Assembly (NCBI RefSeq): GCF_019551475.1
Contig: NZ_CP047159.1
Span: 2,232,001-2,296,000 of the forward strand
Origin: Prevotella sp. Rep29
GTDB taxonomy: Bacteria > Bacteroidota > Bacteroidia > Bacteroidales > Bacteroidaceae
Direction: 5' to 3'
Length of the DNA: 64,000 nucleotides
Shown: in pieces, positions 28,310 to 36,803 of the stretch
Position numbering within the stretch: the stretch's first letter is position 1
Layout of the letters: each line of letters begins with the position of its first letter
Made by a program: the position numbers and the translations under genes
The notes under the pieces: model-generated
The model's input: only the letters and a program-made list of their open reading frames with translations
What the model was told of the DNA's origin: nothing
Databases searched by the model: none

Positions 28310-28942
28310 TTATTTTTTGTCTAAGATTCCGTCTATTGTCTTCAAAGAATTTTCAGTCACGACAAGCACCTCAGCATTCAAAACTTTGTACGTATTGAGT
28401 GTTGACGCAAGCATGACTTCTGCCTTTTGCAGATTTCGAGCCGACAAATATACGTTTTTATTTGATTCTGGCAAAACAAAGAGAAGCTTCTTACCGTCAA
28501 CTTTAAGATTTTTAGTAACATTTATGAATTCTTTAGTTTTCGGAGCTTCAAAAGTGAAGTCTTCTACTATAATGATTGCGTTCTCCTGTGCCTTATAACT
28601 CAACGCAGATCTGCGCGCAAGCGCTTTAACTTTCTTATTCAACTTAAAGCGATAGTCGCGGGGTTTGGGACCAAACACGCGTCCACCACCTCTGAGCAAT
28701 GGAGAGTTAATGTCACCATGACGTGCTCCACCGCCACCTTTCTGACGACCGAGCTTGCGTGTAGAACCGGCGTGTTCACTTCTTTCCTTAGCCTTTGCCG
28801 TTCCCTGACGCTGGTTTGCAAGATACTGCTTGACATCCAGGTACAGAACGTGGTCGTTAGGCTCAATTCCAAAGATCGATTCGTTTAACGTAACCTTTCT
28901 TCCGGTCTCCTGACCGTTAATATTTAATACGCTGAGTTCCAT
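28310..28942 (-). CDS. rplD: 50S ribosomal protein L4
   Basis: 210 residues. [19 protein letters not shown] and the tunnel-loop region [20 protein letters not shown]. Its ATG overlaps the rplC stop by one base (TAATG), indicating coupling. In E. coli L4 represses its own operon through the leader. Confidence 0.98.
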
Positions 28943-29556
28943 TACTTATTGATTAAAACGGTTGAACCATTATATCCAGCCACACTGCCCTTCACGAGAA
29001 TCAGGTTGTGCTCTGGAATTACCTTTAACACTCTGAGATTTTGAGTTGTCACACGGTCTGTACCCATGTGTCCACCCATGCGCATACCCTTGAACACCTT
29101 TGCAGGATAAGAACATGCACCAATAGAACCCGGCTTGCGAGCACGGTCGTCCTGACCGTGGGTAGCCTGACCTACACCACCGAAACCGTGGCGTTTCATT
29201 ACTCCCTGGAATCCTTTTCCCTTAGAAGTTCCTACAACGTCAACAAACTGAGTGTCATTGAAGATCTCAACTGTGACGGTGTCACCGAGGTTTAACTCCT
29301 CGTCAAACTTGAACTCGGCCAAGTGCTTCTTTGGTGTTGTACCGGCTTTCTTGAAGGCTCCCATCATCGCCTTGGAGGTGTTTTTCTCCTTTGCTTCTGC
29401 GAAACCTAATTGAACAGCCTTGTAACCGTCTTTCTCAACGGTCTTTACTTGGGTTACAACACAAGGACCAGCTTCGATAACAGTGCACGGTACGTTCTTA
29501 CCGTCGGCACTGAAAACGGATGTCATTCCGATTTTTCTTCCTATTAATCCTGGCAT
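28942..29556 (-). CDS. rplC: 50S ribosomal protein L3
   Basis: 204 residues. [59 protein letters not shown] and [19 protein letters not shown]. Binds near the peptidyl-transferase centre. First gene of this transcription unit because rpsJ, its usual upstream neighbour, lies 4.75 kb away behind a terminator; rplC has its own promoter and structured leader. Confidence 0.98.
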
Positions 29557-29742
29557 TTCAATTAATAATTAATATGTTATACTATATAATAATTGTTCCT
29601 TTTTAAGTGATCGTTTGTTGCCGCCCGATGCTCAACAACCCACTTAAAAAGGAACTTGAACCGCTTCGTCTTCGAAGGCTAAGTTGCTCTTTATCCGGGT
29701 ATTGTTAGCCTCAGAGCCAGCGCAATACACTTTTTAGCGGGT
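29557..29742 (-). promoter_or_regulatory. Structured 5' leader of rplC
   Basis: About 180 transcribed bases before rplC fold into two stem-loops. Near the 5' end, AGGCTAA pairs with TTAGCCT (29705-29711 with 29676-29682). Further on, a perfect 15-base stem GTTCCTTTTTAAGTG / CACTTAAAAAGGAAC (29641-29655 with 29595-29609) is extended by TTGTTG/CAACAA across a small bulge. The second stem ends 38 bases before the ATG and has no T run, so it is not a terminator. This position and shape fit a ribosomal-protein autoregulatory leader (inference). Confidence 0.6.
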
Positions 29743-29743
29743 G

Positions 29744-29775
29744 CAAAGGTACGAATATTTTTACTTTCCACCAAA
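29744..29775 (-). promoter_or_regulatory. Promoter of the rplC-rplQ block
   Basis: On the minus strand: TTTG, 20-base spacer, TACCTTTG, followed by CACCCGC. Strong match to the Bacteroidota pattern. It drives the 29-gene block. Confidence 0.8.
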
Positions 29776-29877
29776 CTTTTTTCATTATTTTTAATCAACC
29801 GCCATTTTTTACCCCGAATGATTGTTTGCCTTCCCACCAAGCATAGATACAATAGCCGATAGTATTCCCCTCTCTCA

Positions 29878-30005
29878 GTTACATGCGGGTTACATATCAG
29901 TTACATACTATTCACACCTGAAAATCCCTTTATTTATCGGCTCTATCCAAGAATAATCATTTTTTAAAACATGCCTCCAGTTACGTGTTGGTTACATACT
30001 CTATG
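29878..30005. repeat. Imperfect duplicated block downstream of the methylase
   Basis: Two versions of a CAGTTACrTG...GGTTACATA motif, followed by ATCCCTT and TCGGCT, occur at about 29878-29945 and 29970-30045, with GTTACATACT in both. The right copy overlaps the end of the out-of-frame methylase tail. The region between this and the rplC promoter has no gene I can support. Confidence 0.5.
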
Positions 30006-30153
30006 CCCAGAATGGCACATATCCCTTATTGTTTCGGCTTTGGTTTTCCGTTTTCTCCTCCTTAATCTTTCCTGCAATCAAAGCATCCTTTATATTGCGT
30101 GATGCCATTGGACAGTTCTGCTTGTATATTTCATGATCCTCTCTATTCAAAAA
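30001..30153 (-). pseudogene. Out-of-frame C-terminal tail of the DpnA-like methylase
   Basis: Shifting one frame at the T5 run in CCTTTTTGAAT (about 30148-30153) continues the preceding methylase for 49 residues: LNREDHEIYKQNCPMASRNI, KDALIAGKIKEEKTEN, then GYVPFWA and a TAG. The amino-acid composition looks like real protein and there is no stop in that frame, so one T seems to have been lost from the run. Alternatives are programmed frameshifting, slippage-based switching or a sequence error. Confidence 0.6.
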
Positions 30154-31022
30154 GGCAGATCACTAATGACACCATCTTCACATACAAAACATGACGGTTC
30201 CAATATCTCCGACTTGGCAATGTCCTTTATCTTGGAGCGGTAGTTGCTGTAGGTCTTGAAACTGTCGATTTCCTCGCGGCGCTTGCGGCTGATGTCGGCG
30301 AACTGCAGATCCCGCTCGATGCCAAGGTAGCGGCGGCCGATGAGGTTGGCGGCAATGCCGGTGGTCGAAGAGCCGGCGAAGGGGTCGAGAATCCACGCGT
30401 TTTTGTCGGTGGAGGCGAGGATGATGCGGGTGAGCAGGGCGAGGGGCTTCTGTGTGGGATGCTTGCCGCAAGATTTTTCCCACGGGGCGATGGCGGGTAG
30501 TCGCCACACGTCGGTCATCTGCTTGTCATCGTTTAGTTGTTTCATCAGTTCGTAGTTGAAGCGGTGGGGATACTTGGCGTTTTTGCGTGCCCAGATGATG
30601 AACTCTGTGGAGTAGGTGAAGTAGCGGCAGGAGATGTTAGGTGGTGGGTTAGTCTTTGCCCATGTGACGACGTTGAGTATCTTGAAGCCCAGTTCGGTGA
30701 GGCTGTTGGCTACGGAGAAGATGTTGTGATAGGTGCCGGAAATCCAGATGGTACCGTTGTCCTTCAGTTTGTCGCGGCAGAGGCTTATCCATCGCTTGTT
30801 GAATTCGTTAATTTCCTCAGGCGTGCCGCCGCGGTCCCATTCGCCTTTGTTGACGGACACAATTTTCCCTGCCTGCACACTAATGCCGTCGTTGGAGAGG
30901 AAGTAGGGCGGGTCGGCGAAAATCATGTCGAAGTAGAACTTGAACTGAGGGAGCAGCTCGAAGCAATCACCGTGGAGGAGGGTGAAGTCGTGGGAGGCGG
31001 AGCGGTAGTAAGGAGTGATCAT
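30147..31022 (-). CDS. DpnA-like site-specific DNA adenine methyltransferase (beta class)
   Basis: 291 residues as encoded. The catalytic motif IV, DPPY (residues 37-40, FADPPYFLSNDG), comes before the SAM motif DPFAGSSTTGIAANLIGRRY (213-232), the beta-class order of N6-adenine enzymes such as DpnA. HPTQKPLALLTRII is also typical. With the neighbouring DpnM- and DpnII-like genes this gives the DpnII three-gene set; DpnA methylates GATC including in single-stranded DNA, which protects incoming DNA in pneumococcus. The start ATG overlaps the stop of the 176-residue gene (ATGA), so it is translationally coupled. The frame ends early at a T5 run (see the tail entry). Confidence 0.85.
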   Translation of the reverse strand: MITPYYRSASHDFTLLHGDCFELLPQFKFYFDMIFADPPYFLSNDGISVQAGKIVSVNKGEWDRGGTPEEINEFNKRWISLCRDKLKDNGTIWISGTYHNIFSVANSLTELGFKILNVVTWAKTNPPPNISCRYFTYSTEFIIWARKNAKYPHRFNYELMKQLNDDKQMTDVWRLPAIAPWEKSCGKHPTQKPLALLTRIILASTDKNAWILDPFAGSSTTGIAANLIGRRYLGIERDLQFADISRKRREEIDSFKTYSNYRSKIKDIAKSEILEPSCFVCEDGVISDLPF

Positions 31023-31549
31023 AGGCTGTCAATCATTTCTTGGAAGCTTTCCCATGATAACGCCCTGCCTGCTTGTGTCGGATAGTTAACATCTTCCTGC
31101 CCCCATATCCATTTGTAAGCCTTTATAAGGGCTTCTGGGGTTTCTCCTGTCTGAAAGTTTAGGCTACGAATATCGCTGATGAAGTCTTCGGGGTCCTCAC
31201 CGTTGTATGTTCGCTCCAGATATTCCAACAACTTCGCGCCTTGGGTTTTATCTTCAGCTAATTTTGCCCTGACATCCTCAATGATTTGGTCATGCGAGAT
31301 TTGCCAGAGAGAATTGTCTGACGAGTCGAAGATGAAAACCTGTATGTCCTCTTTATAAGGACGACCGAAAGCCTTCTTTCCACCAGGTTTGGTGATGACA
31401 ATCTTTCTGCCGTCGTCAATTTGCTCCACCTCGTAGCCTCTGTATTCAATATCTATGATGGCTTGCGCAAATGCCTTGCGATCCATGTTGCAGATATGGA
31501 TTTTTTTGAGATCGATAGCGTGATTGTATTTGTTCTTTATCATGCCCAT
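31019..31549 (-). CDS. Unrecognised 176-residue protein within the R-M operon
   Basis: Two ATG codons (31549, 31543) and a third at 31486 (MDRKAFAQAIIDIEYRGYEV) are possible starts. It lies 24 bases after the nuclease stop and overlaps the methylase start by four bases. Visible features are a mixed alpha/beta N-terminal half with KAFAQAIIDIEYRGY and KIVITKPGGKKAFGRPYKED, a middle helix QIIEDVRAKLAEDKTQGAKL, and a C-terminal segment ending GRALSWESFQEMIDSL. No signal peptide, membrane helix, DPPY or PD-ExK motif. The classical DpnII operon has no such gene. It could be a nuclease accessory, inhibitor or unrelated passenger; I assign no function. Confidence 0.75.
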   Translation of the reverse strand: MGMIKNKYNHAIDLKKIHICNMDRKAFAQAIIDIEYRGYEVEQIDDGRKIVITKPGGKKAFGRPYKEDIQVFIFDSSDNSLWQISHDQIIEDVRAKLAEDKTQGAKLLEYLERTYNGEDPEDFISDIRSLNFQTGETPEALIKAYKWIWGQEDVNYPTQAGRALSWESFQEMIDSL

Positions 31550-31572
31550 GTCTTTACTTCTTTAATCTTATC

Positions 31573-32406
31573 CTATTTTAGACCGTCCAGAAATCTTCGG
31601 AGGGTCGAGAGGTTATAGACACTTGGTATTGTATAGTAGGCTTCCTGCAATTTGTTCTTGGCGCTCTCCCAGCCTTTACCGTCGGTAACCCACAGGAACT
31701 CGAAACCATCGACGGCATTGATTTTCGGGGCTAGCTCGGTGAAGGAGCGGGCGGTCTCGTTGAGTTTGCTACCGCCACTGCTGTAGAAATTCACCTCGGC
31801 GAGGTAGGTCTTATTCTTGGCCTCAATCACGAAGTCGAATCGCTTCTTGTCGGTGCCGAGGGCTTCGGTGATGGACGGCCACTCGCTGGAATATACTTCC
31901 TTGCGGTACTTTAATCCGCTGCCCTTGATGATCAGCTCCACGGTGCCCTCCATGGCATCGCCGCTGCGATTCTTGCGGGCATTGGAGTCGAGGCCTACTT
32001 CCACGCCGAAAACATAATCGACGAGGTTCTTGACGTTCTTGTCCTTGAAAATCTTGGCGAGGCCAGTGCCCTCTATAAACTCCATCACGCCGTCGATCGT
32101 TGCGAGGTAACTTTCGAGCAGTACAAACTCGGCATCGGCATTGATAACCTTCTTCTTGTCGCGCTTGCGGCAGGCGATGAGAATTTGCAGCACGTCGAAC
32201 ACCCGCTTGTCGTTGTTCCAAAGCTCGGTGACGGCTGCCCGCAGGTTTTCTTTGCCAAGCAGGTAGTTGAGGGTGTTCAACTTGATTTCGATGCTGACCA
32301 CGTTGGTCTTCACTTTCGTAAAGTCTGTCCAAGAGCTCAGCGTGGCGTTGGTTTCTGAGAGTTGGGACATGAAGGTCTTGAACTCCGCTTCTGTATGTGC
32401 GCTCAT
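31573..32406 (-). CDS. DpnII/MboI-type restriction endonuclease (GATC)
   Basis: 277 residues, close to R.DpnII (~290). The family signature lies at residues ~189-220: RFDFVIEAKNKTYLAEVNFY then SSGGSKLNETARSF, with Asp191 and Glu204 as likely metal ligands of the nuclease core, followed by FLWVTDGKGWESAKNKL. This enzyme cleaves unmethylated GATC in double-stranded DNA. It starts three bases after the Dam-type methylase stop, so modification is made first. The gene looks intact, which implies the GATC methylase must be active in the cell. Confidence 0.88.
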   Translation of the reverse strand: MSAHTEAEFKTFMSQLSETNATLSSWTDFTKVKTNVVSIEIKLNTLNYLLGKENLRAAVTELWNNDKRVFDVLQILIACRKRDKKKVINADAEFVLLESYLATIDGVMEFIEGTGLAKIFKDKNVKNLVDYVFGVEVGLDSNARKNRSGDAMEGTVELIIKGSGLKYRKEVYSSEWPSITEALGTDKKRFDFVIEAKNKTYLAEVNFYSSGGSKLNETARSFTELAPKINAVDGFEFLWVTDGKGWESAKNKLQEAYYTIPSVYNLSTLRRFLDGLK

Positions 32407-32409
32407 ATT

Positions 32410-33378
32410 TTACAATGCAAGTTTTATTTGGTTATCGATGATTTCGTTCTGTGGCTTCGTCGTGTAGTTTCTAATGAGTAGCTCGGTCAGCTTGCCGCGC
32501 TTGCTGGCATTGGCGTTGACCATTCGGGAAGCATAGACGCGCTGGATGTTGAATCCCTCGTAGATTTCCTCAAAGAACGTGTCGGCGGGGTTCTTTGCTG
32601 AGCAGTCGGAGTTCGAGAGCATCCATTTTACATTTTTGCGGGTGTTTAATTGACGGCAGAAGTTTGCGAGGTCACGCTGGCTGTCGTCGTTGAAGTCCTC
32701 CTTGACATAGCTGTTGAAGCTGGAGGTCGCGCTGAGAGGTCTGTAGGGCGGGTCGAAGTAGAAGAAAGTCAAGCCCACGTTATCGATGGCCTTGGCCGTT
32801 CCCTTGAAGTCGCCGTTGAGAATCTGCACGTCGTAGTGGTTCAACAGCTCGCTGTCGGCATAAATGACTTCCTCGTTGCAGATGGTGGGATTGGCGTAGC
32901 GGCCAAACGGGACGTTGAATTTACCCTTCGTATTCTCGCGGTAAAGGCCGTTGAAGCATGTGCGGTTAAGGAAGATTAAGATGGCTGTCTTGTCGAGGCT
33001 GCTTAATGGCTCCTCGTTGAAGCGGCGGCGCATATCTAAATAGAATTCCTTTCGTGCCTCTTCCGTTTTGATGCCAAAATATTGCTGCTCAATGTGCTTT
33101 AGACGATATACCAGTCCCTCTGGCTCCTGCTTGATATTCGTGTAGGCATCCGTCAGGTTCTTGTTGATGTCATTGATGACCACGCGCTTGATTTTCAGGA
33201 AGTTTTGCAGCATATAGAACAACATCGCACCGCCACCGACGAACGGCTCCACGTAAGTAAATCCGTCCTCGTATAATTCACGCGGCAAGCACATGTTCAG
33301 TTGCGAGAGAAGCTGCCCCTTTCCCCCAACCCACTTAATAAATGGTTTTGCCAGTTCTTTCGTATTGAAATGTATCAT
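32410..33378 (-). CDS. Dam/DpnM-type DNA adenine methyltransferase (alpha class)
   Basis: 322 residues from ATG giving MIHFNTKELAKPFIKWVGGK; an in-frame GTG 18 codons earlier lies inside the repeat operator and is unlikely. SAM motif KWVGGKGQLL (residues 15-24), TYVEPFVGGGAMLFYML, and DPPY at 209-212 (YFDPPYRPLSATSSFNSY). Motif order is that of D12-class enzymes recognising GATC. First intact gene of the R-M operon, behind the broken XRE gene and three repeat units. Confidence 0.92.
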   Translation of the reverse strand: MIHFNTKELAKPFIKWVGGKGQLLSQLNMCLPRELYEDGFTYVEPFVGGGAMLFYMLQNFLKIKRVVINDINKNLTDAYTNIKQEPEGLVYRLKHIEQQYFGIKTEEARKEFYLDMRRRFNEEPLSSLDKTAILIFLNRTCFNGLYRENTKGKFNVPFGRYANPTICNEEVIYADSELLNHYDVQILNGDFKGTAKAIDNVGLTFFYFDPPYRPLSATSSFNSYVKEDFNDDSQRDLANFCRQLNTRKNVKWMLSNSDCSAKNPADTFFEEIYEGFNIQRVYASRMVNANASKRGKLTELLIRNYTTKPQNEIIDNQIKLAL

Positions 33379-33403
33379 ACATTTTGTAATATTTACATTT
33401 GAC

Positions 33404-33457
33404 TTACCCACTAACTTTTCCAAGTTACCCACTAAATGTATTATAGTTACCCGCTAA
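33404..33457. promoter_or_regulatory. Three-iteron operator in front of the R-M operon
   Basis: TTACCCACTAA (33404-33414), TTACCCACTAA (33425-33435) and TTACCCGCTAA (33447-33457) are 21 and 22 bases apart, i.e. on the same DNA face two helical turns apart. The array lies between the XRE gene and the methylase start; TGTATCATACA, an 11-base palindrome, overlaps the methylase ATG. Likely binding site for a controller protein. Confidence 0.65.
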
Positions 33458-33458
33458 C

Positions 33459-33727
33459 TCAAAAAGATGGGCGTTTCGTTTGACTTTTCTTTGTTCTTAC
33501 TAATTCTGTTAGTTCCATGTCAAGCAGTTCTGCAATTTTGAGATATGTTTCCATCGTTGACTGGCAGTCATTGGTACACCATTTTGATACGGTAGTAGGC
33601 GCACACCCCAACTGCTCTGCCAACCATTTATTGGTTCTTTGGTATCCCTCCACAAAACACTCAATAGTCTCGCAGCACCTCCCTTCTCTGCAAGCACAAC
33701 TTTGATGCGATTAATGTCTTTGTCCAT
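33459..33727 (-). pseudogene. XRE-family regulator gene split by a frameshifting insertion
   Basis: A -7 element TAACTTTG (33759-33752) precedes an ATG at 33727 coding MDKDINRIKVVLAEKG, the usual first helix of small XRE repressors. The rest, RTNKWLAEQLGCAPTTVSKW and CSTMETYLKIAELLDMEL-like sequence (METYLKIAELLDMELTELVR), is in another frame. Between them about 40 bases (around 33637-33680) have no place in the family and shift the frame. A GTG at 33653 could still give a 64-residue protein lacking helix 1. Intact it would be the R-M controller. Confidence 0.7.
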
Positions 33728-33759
33728 AATGGAATTCTATTGCTCTTGGTACAAAGTTA

Positions 33760-34244
33760 CTCATTTTCTCTGAAAGGACACACAAAACGTTCGTATATTT
33801 AGTAAATAATCACATTTTAATGTTATTTTCCCCACTTTTCTGTATCTTTTTCTGAAATTCGTCTGTCATTTTATACATAATCTGCACTAACTGCATCATC
33901 CCAAAACATATATTGTTCCGAGCCACAAAGAATCTTGTACTGATTGCCCAATCCTACACATATTACCCAAACAATCGCAGATAACACTTTAGATAGTCAG
34001 TTCACGCTCGACCATCTGAAAACAAGTTTTCATAGCATTTGCTTACTCGCAGTTTTAGTAATGAAACAGTCTCAATATTTGTTCATGCTCGTAAGTATCA
34101 AAGATACAAATTAGTACAAATGGGCTAATCTTCAACAAATTACACAGAAACCGACGTAATAGCTTTCACATTTCACACTTCCTTGATTCCCTATAGAATA
34201 GTAACGTTTAGGAAAAATCCTGTTCAGAGCAAGAACAGATTTGT
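33760..34244. other. Gene-free stretch between the R-M locus and rpsJ
   Basis: AT-rich sequence of nearly 500 bases. I see no open frame with protein-like composition, no RNA gene and no repeat here. Confidence 0.6.
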
Positions 34245-34290
34245 AAAAAAAACGAAAAGCGGCACAACCGCCAAATGGGATGCGCCGCTT
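34245..34290 (-). terminator. Intrinsic terminator after rpsJ
   Basis: Stem AAGCGGC / GCCGCTT and, on the minus strand, TTCG followed by eight T. It ends the str-type transcript right after rpsJ, separating it from rplC. Confidence 0.85.
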
Positions 34291-34311: not shown

Positions 34312-34617
34312 CTACACTTTGATTTCCACTTCTACTCCGCTGGGAAGTTCGAGTTTCATCAGTGCATCAACAGTCTTTGTCGTTGAGCTATAGATGTCTA
34401 TCAGACGTTTGAAATCTGAAAGCTGGAACTGCTCACGTGCCTTTTTGTTCACGAACGTACTACGGTTCACCGTATAGATACGCTTGTGGGTGGGCAGGGG
34501 TATTGGACCGCTGACGATTGCACCTGTAGCCTTAACGGCTTTCACGATTTTCTCTGCTGACTTATCAACCAACTTGTGGTCGTAAGACTTCAACTTAATT
34601 CTAATTTTCTGACTCAT
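34312..34617 (-). CDS. rpsJ: 30S ribosomal protein S10
   Basis: 101 residues. [40 protein letters not shown] and [10 protein letters not shown]. Besides its 30S head role it is NusE, partner of NusB/NusG in antitermination. It follows fusA, and normally rplC would come next; here it is followed by a terminator and a restriction-modification locus. Confidence 0.98.
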
Positions 34618-34688: not shown

Positions 34689-36803
34689 TTACACGAGATC
34701 TGCGCGACCTTTCACCTCTTCAAGAACAGTCTTTGCGATTGAGCTGGAGAGTGGTGCATGGTGGTCGTACTCCATCGAGCTGGTTGCACGTCCGGAAGTG
34801 ATCGTACGCAACGCCGTTACGTAGCCGAACATTTCTGACAGCGGAACCATTGCTTTCACGATGCGGGCACCGCTACGTGCTTCATCCATGCCTTCAACCT
34901 GTCCGCGACGCTTGTTCAAGTCACCGATTACGTCACCCATGTTTTCTTCCGGTGTCACCACCTCTACCTTCATGATGGGCTCCATCAGGACGGGCGATGC
35001 TTTCACACAGGCGTTACGATAAGCGTTGACTGCTGCAAGCTCGAATGAGAGTTGGTCTGAGTCCACGGGGTGGAACGAACCGTCGGTCAGCACGACCTTC
35101 AGGTCGGTCATCGGGTAGCCACCGAGGATACCATTCTTCATGGCGTTCTCGAAACCTTTCTGAACTGCCGGGATGAATTCCTTAGGAATATTTCCGCCTT
35201 TCACCTCGTTGATGAACTGCAGGTCACCTTCTTTATAGTCAGGATCCTTCGGTCCGACTGTACAGATGATGTCGGCGAACTTACCGCGACCACCGCTCTG
35301 CTTCTTGTAAACCTCACGCAATTCCACCGGCTTGGTGATTGCTTCCTTATAGTTAACCTGCGGTTTTCCTTGATTACATTCAACCTTGAACTCGCGCTTC
35401 AGGCGGTCGATGATGATGTCGAGATGGAGCTCACCCATACCAGAGATGATGGTCTGACCGCTCTGCTCGTCCGTACGTACGGTGAACGTCGGGTCCTCTT
35501 CTGCCAATTTGGCAAGACCGTTATCCAGTTTTGCGATATCTGCCTGGCTCTTCGGTTCAACAGCAATAGAAATCACCGTGTCGGGGAAGGTCATTGACTC
35601 GAGCACGATAGGCTTGCCCTCATCACACAAGGTGTCACCCGTACGGATATCCTTGAATCCCACACCCGCTCCGATGTCACCTGCATCGATTGACTCCATC
35701 GGAATTTCCTTGTTGGAGTTCATCTGGAACAGGCGGCTGATGCGCTCTTTCTTTCCTGAACGGGGATTATACACATAGCTTCCAGCTACCACCTTACCTG
35801 AATACACGCGGAAGAACACCAGACGTCCCATGTATGGGTCGGTTGCAATCTTAAATGCAAGTGCTGCCGTCGGCTCGTCTTCAGACGGCTTACGACCTTC
35901 TTCCTCGTCAGTTTCGGGGTTCATACCCATCACTGCCTCTGTATCCAGCGGTGACGGCAGGAACGCACAAGTATAGTCGAGCAGCGGCTGCACACCTTTA
36001 TTCTTGTATGAAGAGCCACAGAGCATCGGAGTAATCTCCATGCTGATTGTGCCTTTACGAAGGGCTGCGATGAGTTTGTCTTCCGGAATTTCCTTTCCTT
36101 CGAGGTACATTTCCATCAGCTCGTCGTCATAGTTGGCTGCTGTCTCCAACATCTTGTCGCGCCATTCGTTGCACTCGTCCACGAGGTCTGCCGGGATTTC
36201 CTCCACGTCATATTCTGCCCCCATCGACTCGTCATGCCACAAAATGGCTTTCATCTTAATCAGGTCAACAAGCCCTTTGAAGTTCTCCTCTGCACCGATA
36301 GGAACCTGAACGGGGCACGGGTTGGCACCCAGAATGTCTCTCATCTGCTGAACAGTCTCAAAGAAGTCAGCACCCGAGCGGTCCATCTTGTTCACGTAAC
36401 CGATACGAGGAACGTTGTATTTATCAGCCTGACGCCAAACGGTCTCCGACTGCGGCTGTACGCCGTCTGCTGCCGAATAGGTTGCGATAGCTCCGTCGAG
36501 CACACGCAACGAGCGTTCCACTTCCGCCGTGAAGTCCACGTGTCCCGGAGTGTCAATCAGGTTGATTTTATAAGTCTTATCATTCCATTTCCAATTGCAA
36601 GTAGTTGCAGCAGAGGTAATTGTGATACCTCTCTCCTGCTCTTGCGCCATCCAGTCCATCGTTGCCGCACCATCGTGAACCTCACCAATCTTGTGCGTCT
36701 TTCCCGTGTAGAAGAGAATACGCTCAGAGGTAGTTGTTTTACCGGCATCAATGTGTGCCATGATGCCAATGTTGCGGGTCAGACGTAAATCCTGCTTTGC
36801 CAT
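34689..36803 (-). CDS. fusA: Elongation factor G
   Basis: 704 residues. G domain with [27 protein letters not shown] and NKMDRSGAD; later domains show [31 protein letters not shown] and RRGQVEGMD. Drives tRNA-mRNA translocation by GTP hydrolysis. Located between rpsG and rpsJ. Confidence 0.98.

Follow-up and report, generated by a model that had tools for sequence, protein, structure and literature searches.

How does a complete restriction-modification (R-M) system come to lie between two genes of a ribosomal protein cluster? The question arises from a stretch of 64,000 nt (positions 2,232,001 to 2,296,000 of NZ_CP047159.1; hereafter the window) in the genome of Prevotella sp. Rep29, which is a single contig of 2,730,135 bases. 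The pair rpsJ–rplC is generally counted among the most stable in bacteria. In the window the rplC start (29556) is separated from the rpsJ stop (34312) by 4,755 nt, and an apparently complete DpnII-type cassette, recognized by profile matches, stands in between. An earlier note on this DNA had described correctly both the distance of 4.7 kb, here confirmed from ORF coordinates, and the presence of a complete GATC system; it went on to propose that the R-M system had entered a contiguous operon, that the break was afterwards repaired, and that the essential neighbours made the insertion hard to lose. Comparison with relatives points to a different order of events. The rpsJ–rplC junction is an operon boundary that has opened repeatedly, and where it is open an apparently undescribed leader RNA goes with it; judged from the sequences compared, it is likely that this boundary is old in part of the genus and that the cassette is later, lateral cargo between two independent units.

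According to the open reading frame (ORF) list the minus-strand order is fusA (34689-36803), rpsJ (34312-34617), the insert, rplC (28942-29556) and rplD (28310-28942). The insert holds an interrupted helix-turn-helix (HTH) ORF followed by DpnM-like, DpnII-like, ORF176 and DpnA-like genes, all co-directional with the ribosomal genes on either side. The features, from rpsJ to rplC, are:

34312..34617, minus: rpsJ (ribosomal protein S10), which closes the rpsL-rpsG-fusA-rpsJ unit (PF00338, 1.2e-34)
34249..34290, minus: hairpin resembling an intrinsic terminator, with a T-rich tail, downstream of rpsJ (hairpin scan)
33900..34248, no strand: intergenic stretch containing the cassette 5′ junction (relatives' rpsJ homology stops at the rpsJ stop; homology to the cassette of locus L135 from 33899)
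29822..33899, minus: extent of the R-M cassette by DNA homology (L121, 86.8% over 33756-29822; L135, 82.3% over 33899-30149)
33459..33727, minus: controller-like HTH ORF, interrupted (alignment with L121 and L135)
33404..33457, minus: TTAGYGGGTAA in three operator-like copies, in the space that separates the HTH ORF from the likely DpnM start (read from the sequence)
32410..33432, minus: DpnM-like GATC adenine methyltransferase with DPPY motif (PF02086, 1.5e-57; PDB 2dpm, 1.9e-53; TIGR00571 above cut-off)
31573..32406, minus: DpnII-like restriction endonuclease (PF04556, 3.4e-93, profile positions 2-273 of 278)
31019..31549, minus: ORF176, an unnamed conserved protein of 176 aa with a 4-nt overlap with the DpnA start (homologues only)
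30147..31022, minus: DpnA-like second DNA methyltransferase with DPPY motif (PF01555, 1.9e-59)
29795..29822, no strand: cassette 3′ junction (L121 homology stops at 29822; relatives' rplC-promoter homology restarts at 29793-29802)
29744..29775, minus: predicted rplC promoter, TACCTTTG at 29744-29751 and TTTG at 29772-29775 (predicted start ~29737)
29557..29746, minus: predicted rplC leader RNA with a core hairpin (29699-29728), a second hairpin and a long hairpin (alignment, folding, covariation)
28942..29556, minus: rplC (ribosomal protein L3), which opens the downstream S10-type operon (PF00297, 7.5e-15)

Spacing of rpsJ and rplC in the genus and family

Among 120 genomes of the genus rpsJ was found in 86 and rplC in 86. 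The distances given here are for the 66 pairs that share a contig; a further 12 pairs, on different contigs, were counted separately. The distribution of distances is bimodal: the two genes are less than 100 nt apart in 38 pairs, 100-230 nt in four, 230-1000 nt in nine and more than 1 kb (up to ~50 kb) in 15. Presence of the leader follows this division: it occurs in none of the 38 shortest gaps, in one of the four of 100-230 nt, and in every one of the nine and 15 in the two longer classes, that is, in all 24 same-contig gaps above 230 nt, and also in 12 of 12 different-contig pairs. Six further genomes of the genus, encountered in a draw of the family, conform: one (G194, gap of 935 nt) has the leader and five contiguous ones are without it. 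With so many gaps above 230 nt, a split junction is a frequent state in the genus, and the window's genome is no exception in having one.

Outside the genus the picture is one of contiguity, as the earlier note had expected. The family draw comprised 121 genomes, 114 from other genera and seven of the window's genus; 100 of the 114 contain both genes, 98 of them on the same contig (for G122, G137, G177, G187 and G238 a fragment of one of the two genes at a contig edge was accepted), and in 97 of these 98 pairs the genes are no more than 100 nt apart. All exceptions belong to a single genus, g15, where three of the six genomes in the draw depart from the rule (G134, with 5.1 kb; G183 and G233, with the genes on different contigs). 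The regions upstream of rplC in g15 are unlike the leader of the window's genus, and a motif, AAAGTAGGAAAC, is common to two of the three (G134 and G183; loci L265 and L268), which suggests an independent split with another leader.

What separates the genes in leader-bearing relatives is in many instances neither an R-M system nor, in the nearest case, any gene. Nine relatives have the leader, a gap of 315-746 nt and no R-M system (G005, G008, G009, G034, G047, G048, G070, G082 and G091). A tree was built by a quick method from 21 proteins encoded from rplC onward, mostly ribosomal, with rows for the window and for the genus genomes from which the rplC region had been retrieved (61 of the 120 in all) and ten outgroup rows, the latter covering 17% of the columns where listed. 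On it the window's sister is G005 (SH-aLRT 99), in which leader and terminator accompany a 573-nt gap without an ORF of 70 aa. Because this sister is split, with leader but with no gene inside, the opening appears to have preceded the R-M system; and because a homologous promoter and leader are found in split relatives whatever the cargo, the split appears older and the R-M system a later arrival.

The signals at either edge of the gap are likewise shared. The terminator-like hairpin, which in the window spans 34257-34290 and lies 21 nt past rpsJ, was detected in 22 of 24 leader-bearing same-contig junctions (the window included), in 0 of five leaderless ones and in 19 of 19 loci where the rpsJ side alone was read, in a scan that ran without shuffle control. 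The rplC promoter was predicted with the Bacteroidota promoter consensus, and TAnnTTTG stands at a comparable position in the aligned leader-bearing relatives. Homology to the cassette extends to 29822 and host promoter homology restarts at 29793-29802 in four of eight compared relatives (G005, G009, G047 and G070), so that the cassette ends upstream of the rplC promoter; in the other four the restart is at 29751-29762. The 3′ end of the cassette thus falls short of the −33 element and stands ~85 nt before the predicted transcription start of rplC, with the promoter intact.

A predicted structured leader upstream of rplC

The leader is ~190 nt long, and in the window its long hairpin, of 15-18 bp, ends 38 nt before the rplC start codon. 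A pattern describing the leader core matched 49 of the 120 genus genomes, with 0 of 120 for the reversed-pattern control. Of these sites 45 are directly upstream of rplC, one (G085) is at a contig end without rplC, and three elsewhere (G024, G026 and G080) look like chance matches. A stricter pattern applied to a larger draw of the genus matched 124 of 398 (control 0), the matches being checked against rplC in the first set and in 39 further loci holding rplC.

Structure was assessed on leaders located in 37 loci. Alignment A1 leaves out three with truncated ends (L108, L114 and L116); alignment A3 also leaves out L078, L088, L092 and L100, which have divergent or inserted 5′ parts. The 5′ part, consisting of two hairpins, was judged as a named structure: 94.3% of cells are paired, the covariation score is 0.157 against 0.105 when shuffled, and none of 500 shuffles equalled it on any of five measures. 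Sliding the helix partner reduces pairing to 33-61% and the covariation score to at most 0.094, a comparison in which the structure, having been drawn from the sequences on which it was tested, is favoured over the slid versions. Folding of the window's leader by itself also beats most shuffled versions, with z −2.6 and an equally good result in 3 of 200. The 3′ hairpin was assessed by its own arm count. Its arms pair at 98.4% within sequences versus 85.7% across sequences (25 of 34 leaders, those that could be anchored) and show A-U, U-A and G-C exchanges; a test of stem length alone is weak, a score of 12 being reached by 20 of 34 leaders and 135 of 680 shuffles. RNAalifold applied to the full leader alignment returned the core hairpin only (nine pairs, covariation term −0.31), because MAFFT had slid the long hairpin in the alignment.

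No Rfam 15 family reaches its gathering score at the leader of the window, nor in the 19 loci of relatives that were compared, 17 of them leader-bearing members of the genus and two from g15; a relaxed threshold gave two chance-level matches only. In the 121 genomes of the family a covariance model of the leader matched strongly only in G000 and G194, both of the genus; in 149 genomes of the order it did so only in G000. The search filters are stricter for draws of this size. Weaker matches have E values of 0.001-0.01, and four of them, in other genera of the family, lie off the rplC contig. A literature search limited to open-licence papers turned up none that describes a leader of rplC or of the S10 operon in Prevotella or Bacteroidota. 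The leader RNA is apparently undescribed, and as such is more novel than the cassette.

This conserved, structured stretch directly upstream of the rplC operon, with the predicted status of a 5′ untranslated region (UTR), is probably a ribosomal-protein operon leader. L4 or L3 would be the natural candidates for feedback control, and hence candidate ligands. A separate suggestion, that the leader stretch CTGAAAAAGA might mimic domain I of 23S rRNA, was dropped when the genome's own 23S did not show it.

The cassette and the other cargo

The R-M system itself is nothing out of the ordinary, a new member of a known family; what is unusual is where it stands. Its methyltransferase is of the D12 class and DpnM type, the match to PDB 2dpm (DpnM) having the DPPY motif aligned; the ORF is listed from a GTG, and a start near 33378 is more likely. 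The endonuclease is an open frame that covers the PF04556 model of the DpnII/MboI family nearly completely, and the second methyltransferase is of DpnA type, with DpnA syntenic in other Bacteroidales loci. By homology the cassette presumably acts like ordinary DpnII systems, DpnM and DpnA methylating GATC and DpnII cutting unmethylated DNA. The controller-like HTH ORF is not intact: relative to the uninterrupted copy in L135 it is interrupted by ~41 nt (~33641-33681), so that control of the R-M system may be lost or altered. A frame of 64 aa from a GTG (33459-33653) is still open and could still be used, its matches to PF07022, PF01381 and PF13443 being barely above cut-off. L121 has the same ~41-nt interruption, and since the two cassettes are only 87% identical the interrupted form has persisted. 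The TTAGYGGGTAA repeats may serve as operators.

ORF176 has no match in Pfam, PADLOC or NCBIfam, and its AlphaFold model, while confident, yielded no clear structural relative. It has 1,082 homologues at E≤1e-3 and a conserved YKWIWGQEDVNYP-like stretch. Across 41 DpnII loci it is full-length in six, split into two in L144 and reduced to a remnant in L125, a distribution that points to an optional member of DpnII-type cassettes, placed between R and DpnA in some.

Within the sampled genomes the cassette has the appearance of a horizontally acquired insertion that is specific to one lineage. DpnII relatives occur in 21 of the 120 genus genomes, and the 20 besides the window's are 49-61% identical (one is a fragment); the DpnII of cassettes elsewhere in other Bacteroidales is up to 94% identical to that of the window, and this difference supports lateral arrival. 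Neither rpsJ nor rplC was found in the 41 DpnII loci of other genomes, for which 3.2-16.8 kb of DNA was available in each case, some contigs being only 3-4 kb. The insert ORFs given to Pfam include no integrase or transposase family of the kind that an integrase-borne genomic island would carry. Mobility on plasmids was also considered and rejected: only four plasmid records matched, at 71-76% identity over 2-4% of the query.

One relative of the window's endonuclease, that of G084 (56% identical), is inferred to be Pin25611FII, the coordinates of its R gene (1005118-1005936) agreeing with the published ones (PMC5608340). The same paper describes Pin25611FII of P. intermedia as having a methyltransferase demonstrated to protect GATC by m6A. 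In G079 a DpnII relative (G079:C80:37078-37875) shares the contig of rplC, ~17 kb downstream; it may lie immediately outside the ribosomal protein cluster, and possibly marks a second R-M position at the other end of that cluster.

Site depletion was examined as a sign of long R-M residence. The window contains 77 GATC sites versus ~260 expected (0.30 of the Markov expectation), but many genomes of the genus are depleted in the region downstream of rplC, irrespective of DpnII: the median observed/expected ratio there is 0.52 in genomes with DpnII (n = 12) and 0.54 in those without (n = 49). The argument was abandoned. The whole window is also depleted in CTAG (five sites, 0.08 of expected) and GGCC (35 sites, 0.21); for GGCC some other selection may be at work, for instance by a HaeIII-type system present in the past. 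Elsewhere in the window, at 2696-2762 on the plus strand, there is a small RNA of the FopS family (RF04319, 75.3 bits).

Cargo at other junctions was taken from two sets. The first consists of the 13 other complete junctions of more than 1 kb, to which Pfam alone was applied, with 40 of the 48 ORFs of 100 aa or more. The second consists of 40 loci hand-picked for long flanks, among which L322 is without rplC and 13 are short of rpsJ; the remaining 26 are complete junctions picked by their leader, all with gaps of at least 279 nt and 20 of more than 1 kb, and 86 ORFs of at least 120 aa were considered. First-set cargo includes a VapE-like protein, an ECF sigma factor with FecR and a TonB receptor, a histidine kinase with SIS/GATase, a HaeIII R-M system (G055), cytidylate kinase, serpin, PepSY, DsbD, DUF4421 with M56/TonB, a riboflavin operon and a glycosyltransferase. 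At the junction in G055 (L065) the HaeIII-type system is accompanied by a second C5 methyltransferase gene. The second set contributes a Type IIG system in G573 and an EcoRI-type pair in G551; a gene of the DpnII cassette was found in 0 of its 40 loci.

How the junction may have come to be open

The sequence of events that we favour runs as follows. In part of the genus rpsJ would be closed by its own terminator and rplC would form a unit of its own, with a promoter and a structured leader, as the comparison of relatives indicates. The leader would take over feedback control of the rplC operon through one of its ribosomal proteins. With the two units transcriptionally independent, DNA could enter between them without cutting ribosomal protein expression, and varied cargo may thus have come and gone; the variety of content is plain from the junctions, and the independence of the two units would be its cause. 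In the window the cargo is a DpnII-type cassette, apparently acquired laterally, co-directional with both units and ending just upstream of the rplC promoter.

Several observations weigh against this account. Three gaps of 125-202 nt are without the leader. The 5′ junction of the cassette is placed only within 33900-34248, and the terminator, the promoter, the leader and its transcription as a 5′ UTR are predictions. Two-sided changes in the 5′ helices of the leader affect seven of 14 pairs and 11 cells; with slid versions at five pairs and as many cells, these changes are not decisive; the long hairpin could not be anchored in nine of 34 leaders, and exact words shared with the genome's own 23S rRNA are no commoner in sense than in antisense. 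Some cargo recurs, namely PepSY-like genes in close relatives (G028 and G044), VapE-like genes (G022 and G035) and DsbD-like genes (several genomes), and since it is shared not every junction is an independent insertion. Finally, the tree requires at least 10 changes of leader state, with 26 genomes bearing the leader and 35 lacking it. The divergence of leaders is correlated with the tree only moderately (Mantel r 0.33, p 0.009, n = 23), and the nearest leader belongs to the nearest tree neighbour in just four of 23 cases. An early single gain with repeated loss and re-fusion, and exchange by recombination, both fit the change count; the direction of the changes is our inference.

A more ambitious version of the favoured account, which we put forward tentatively, holds that the leader RNA is itself an operon-splitting module: where it is present with terminator and promoter, rplC would be freed from the rpsJ unit and regulate itself through the leader, the junction would become a free port for cargo including R-M systems, and loss of the module would re-fuse the operon. 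On this version the genus would have switched state ten times or more, and g15, a second genus, would have been split in the corresponding position with a different leader.

Somewhat unlikely, in our view, is that the block of leader, promoter and terminator moves between species by homologous recombination through the flanking ribosomal protein genes. The number of state changes would be accounted for, as would the modest vertical signal and the 19 of 23 nearest leaders that do not come from the nearest genome on the tree, and conserved flanking genes could act as recombination arms. Leader distance nevertheless still tracks the tree, and one clade of 14 genomes is uniformly leader-bearing.

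We doubt more strongly that the junction is a defence island or an attractor of R-M systems rather than a neutral open site. R-M systems occupy four of the 34 cargo-bearing junctions (three of 33 without the window) and are of four types: DpnII in the window, HaeIII, Type IIG and EcoRI. Outside the window, three systems in ~208 kb of cargo compare with ~0.5-0.7 expected (P ~0.02-0.03), a rough expectation based on the R-M density of two strains of one species, P. intermedia, in Tables 1 and 2 of PMC5608340. Candidate-defence models of PADLOC add a few matches: mad3 in three members, and mad2 (L285), NsnA and PDC models in one each. Against this, most of the 34 junctions carry ordinary genes, ABC transporters included, and the second set was hand-picked while the first was read by Pfam with part of its ORFs. 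The excess is suggestive only.

That the cassette broke a contiguous operon, with terminator, promoter and leader evolving as repair and essential neighbours locking it in, gains something from contiguity being the family norm and from the cassette being lineage-specific among the sampled genomes, yet it is very improbable, and the cassette was rejected as what caused the split: promoter and leader are also present in relatives whose genes are separated by different cargo or by none, such as the nine R-M-free relatives, which include the sister; cassette homology stops short of the promoter, and the leader state has changed repeatedly.

The claims of the earlier note divide along the same line. 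Its terminator, promoter (start at ~29737) and leader are there as sequence features, and its view of the cassette as an insertion is supported, the cassette appearing lineage-specific and horizontally acquired in the sampled genomes; the breaking of the operon by the cassette is not supported, leader-bearing relatives being split without R-M. Nor is the repair after R-M entry, since homologous promoter, leader and usually terminator flank whatever lies between, even nothing; the same split with other genes or no genes in relatives is the very outcome that the note had named as evidence that the split is the older event. An insertion that is hard to lose is at odds with at least 10 changes of leader state, by which neither split nor R-M system is locked in, and with the many contiguous, leaderless genomes of the genus. 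The idea of a safe harbour survives in a milder form, with R-M systems of four types in four junction genomes, and fails as lock-in by essential neighbours.

The favoured account, in which the opening came first, corrects the idea of an R-M system breaking and locking an essential operon. A single genus with repeated split and contiguous states, and an RNA element marking the split, amounts to a natural series of replicates in which the interdependence of ribosomal protein autoregulation, operon integrity and gene acquisition can be followed.

Each component has a counterpart among known systems. Integration hotspots between conserved core genes are a familiar concept, and the junction resembles them in its conserved flanks and mostly differing cargo; it differs in that the window insert has no integrase or transposase, in lying within the ribosomal protein cluster, and in that occupancy tracks the promoter and leader. 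The DpnII system of Streptococcus pneumoniae consists of DpnM, DpnA and DpnII. The protein families in the window are the same, with GATC specificity assigned by homology, whereas the order is M, R, ORF176, A and includes an extra unnamed gene. The S10 operon of Escherichia coli starts with rpsJ. In the window, by contrast, the leader stands between rpsJ and rplC and matches nothing in Rfam. The likeness lies in the arrangement: the L4-regulated leader of the E. coli S10 operon (PMC10931766) is, like the one proposed for the window, a long structured 5′ UTR ahead of an operon containing rplC and rplD.

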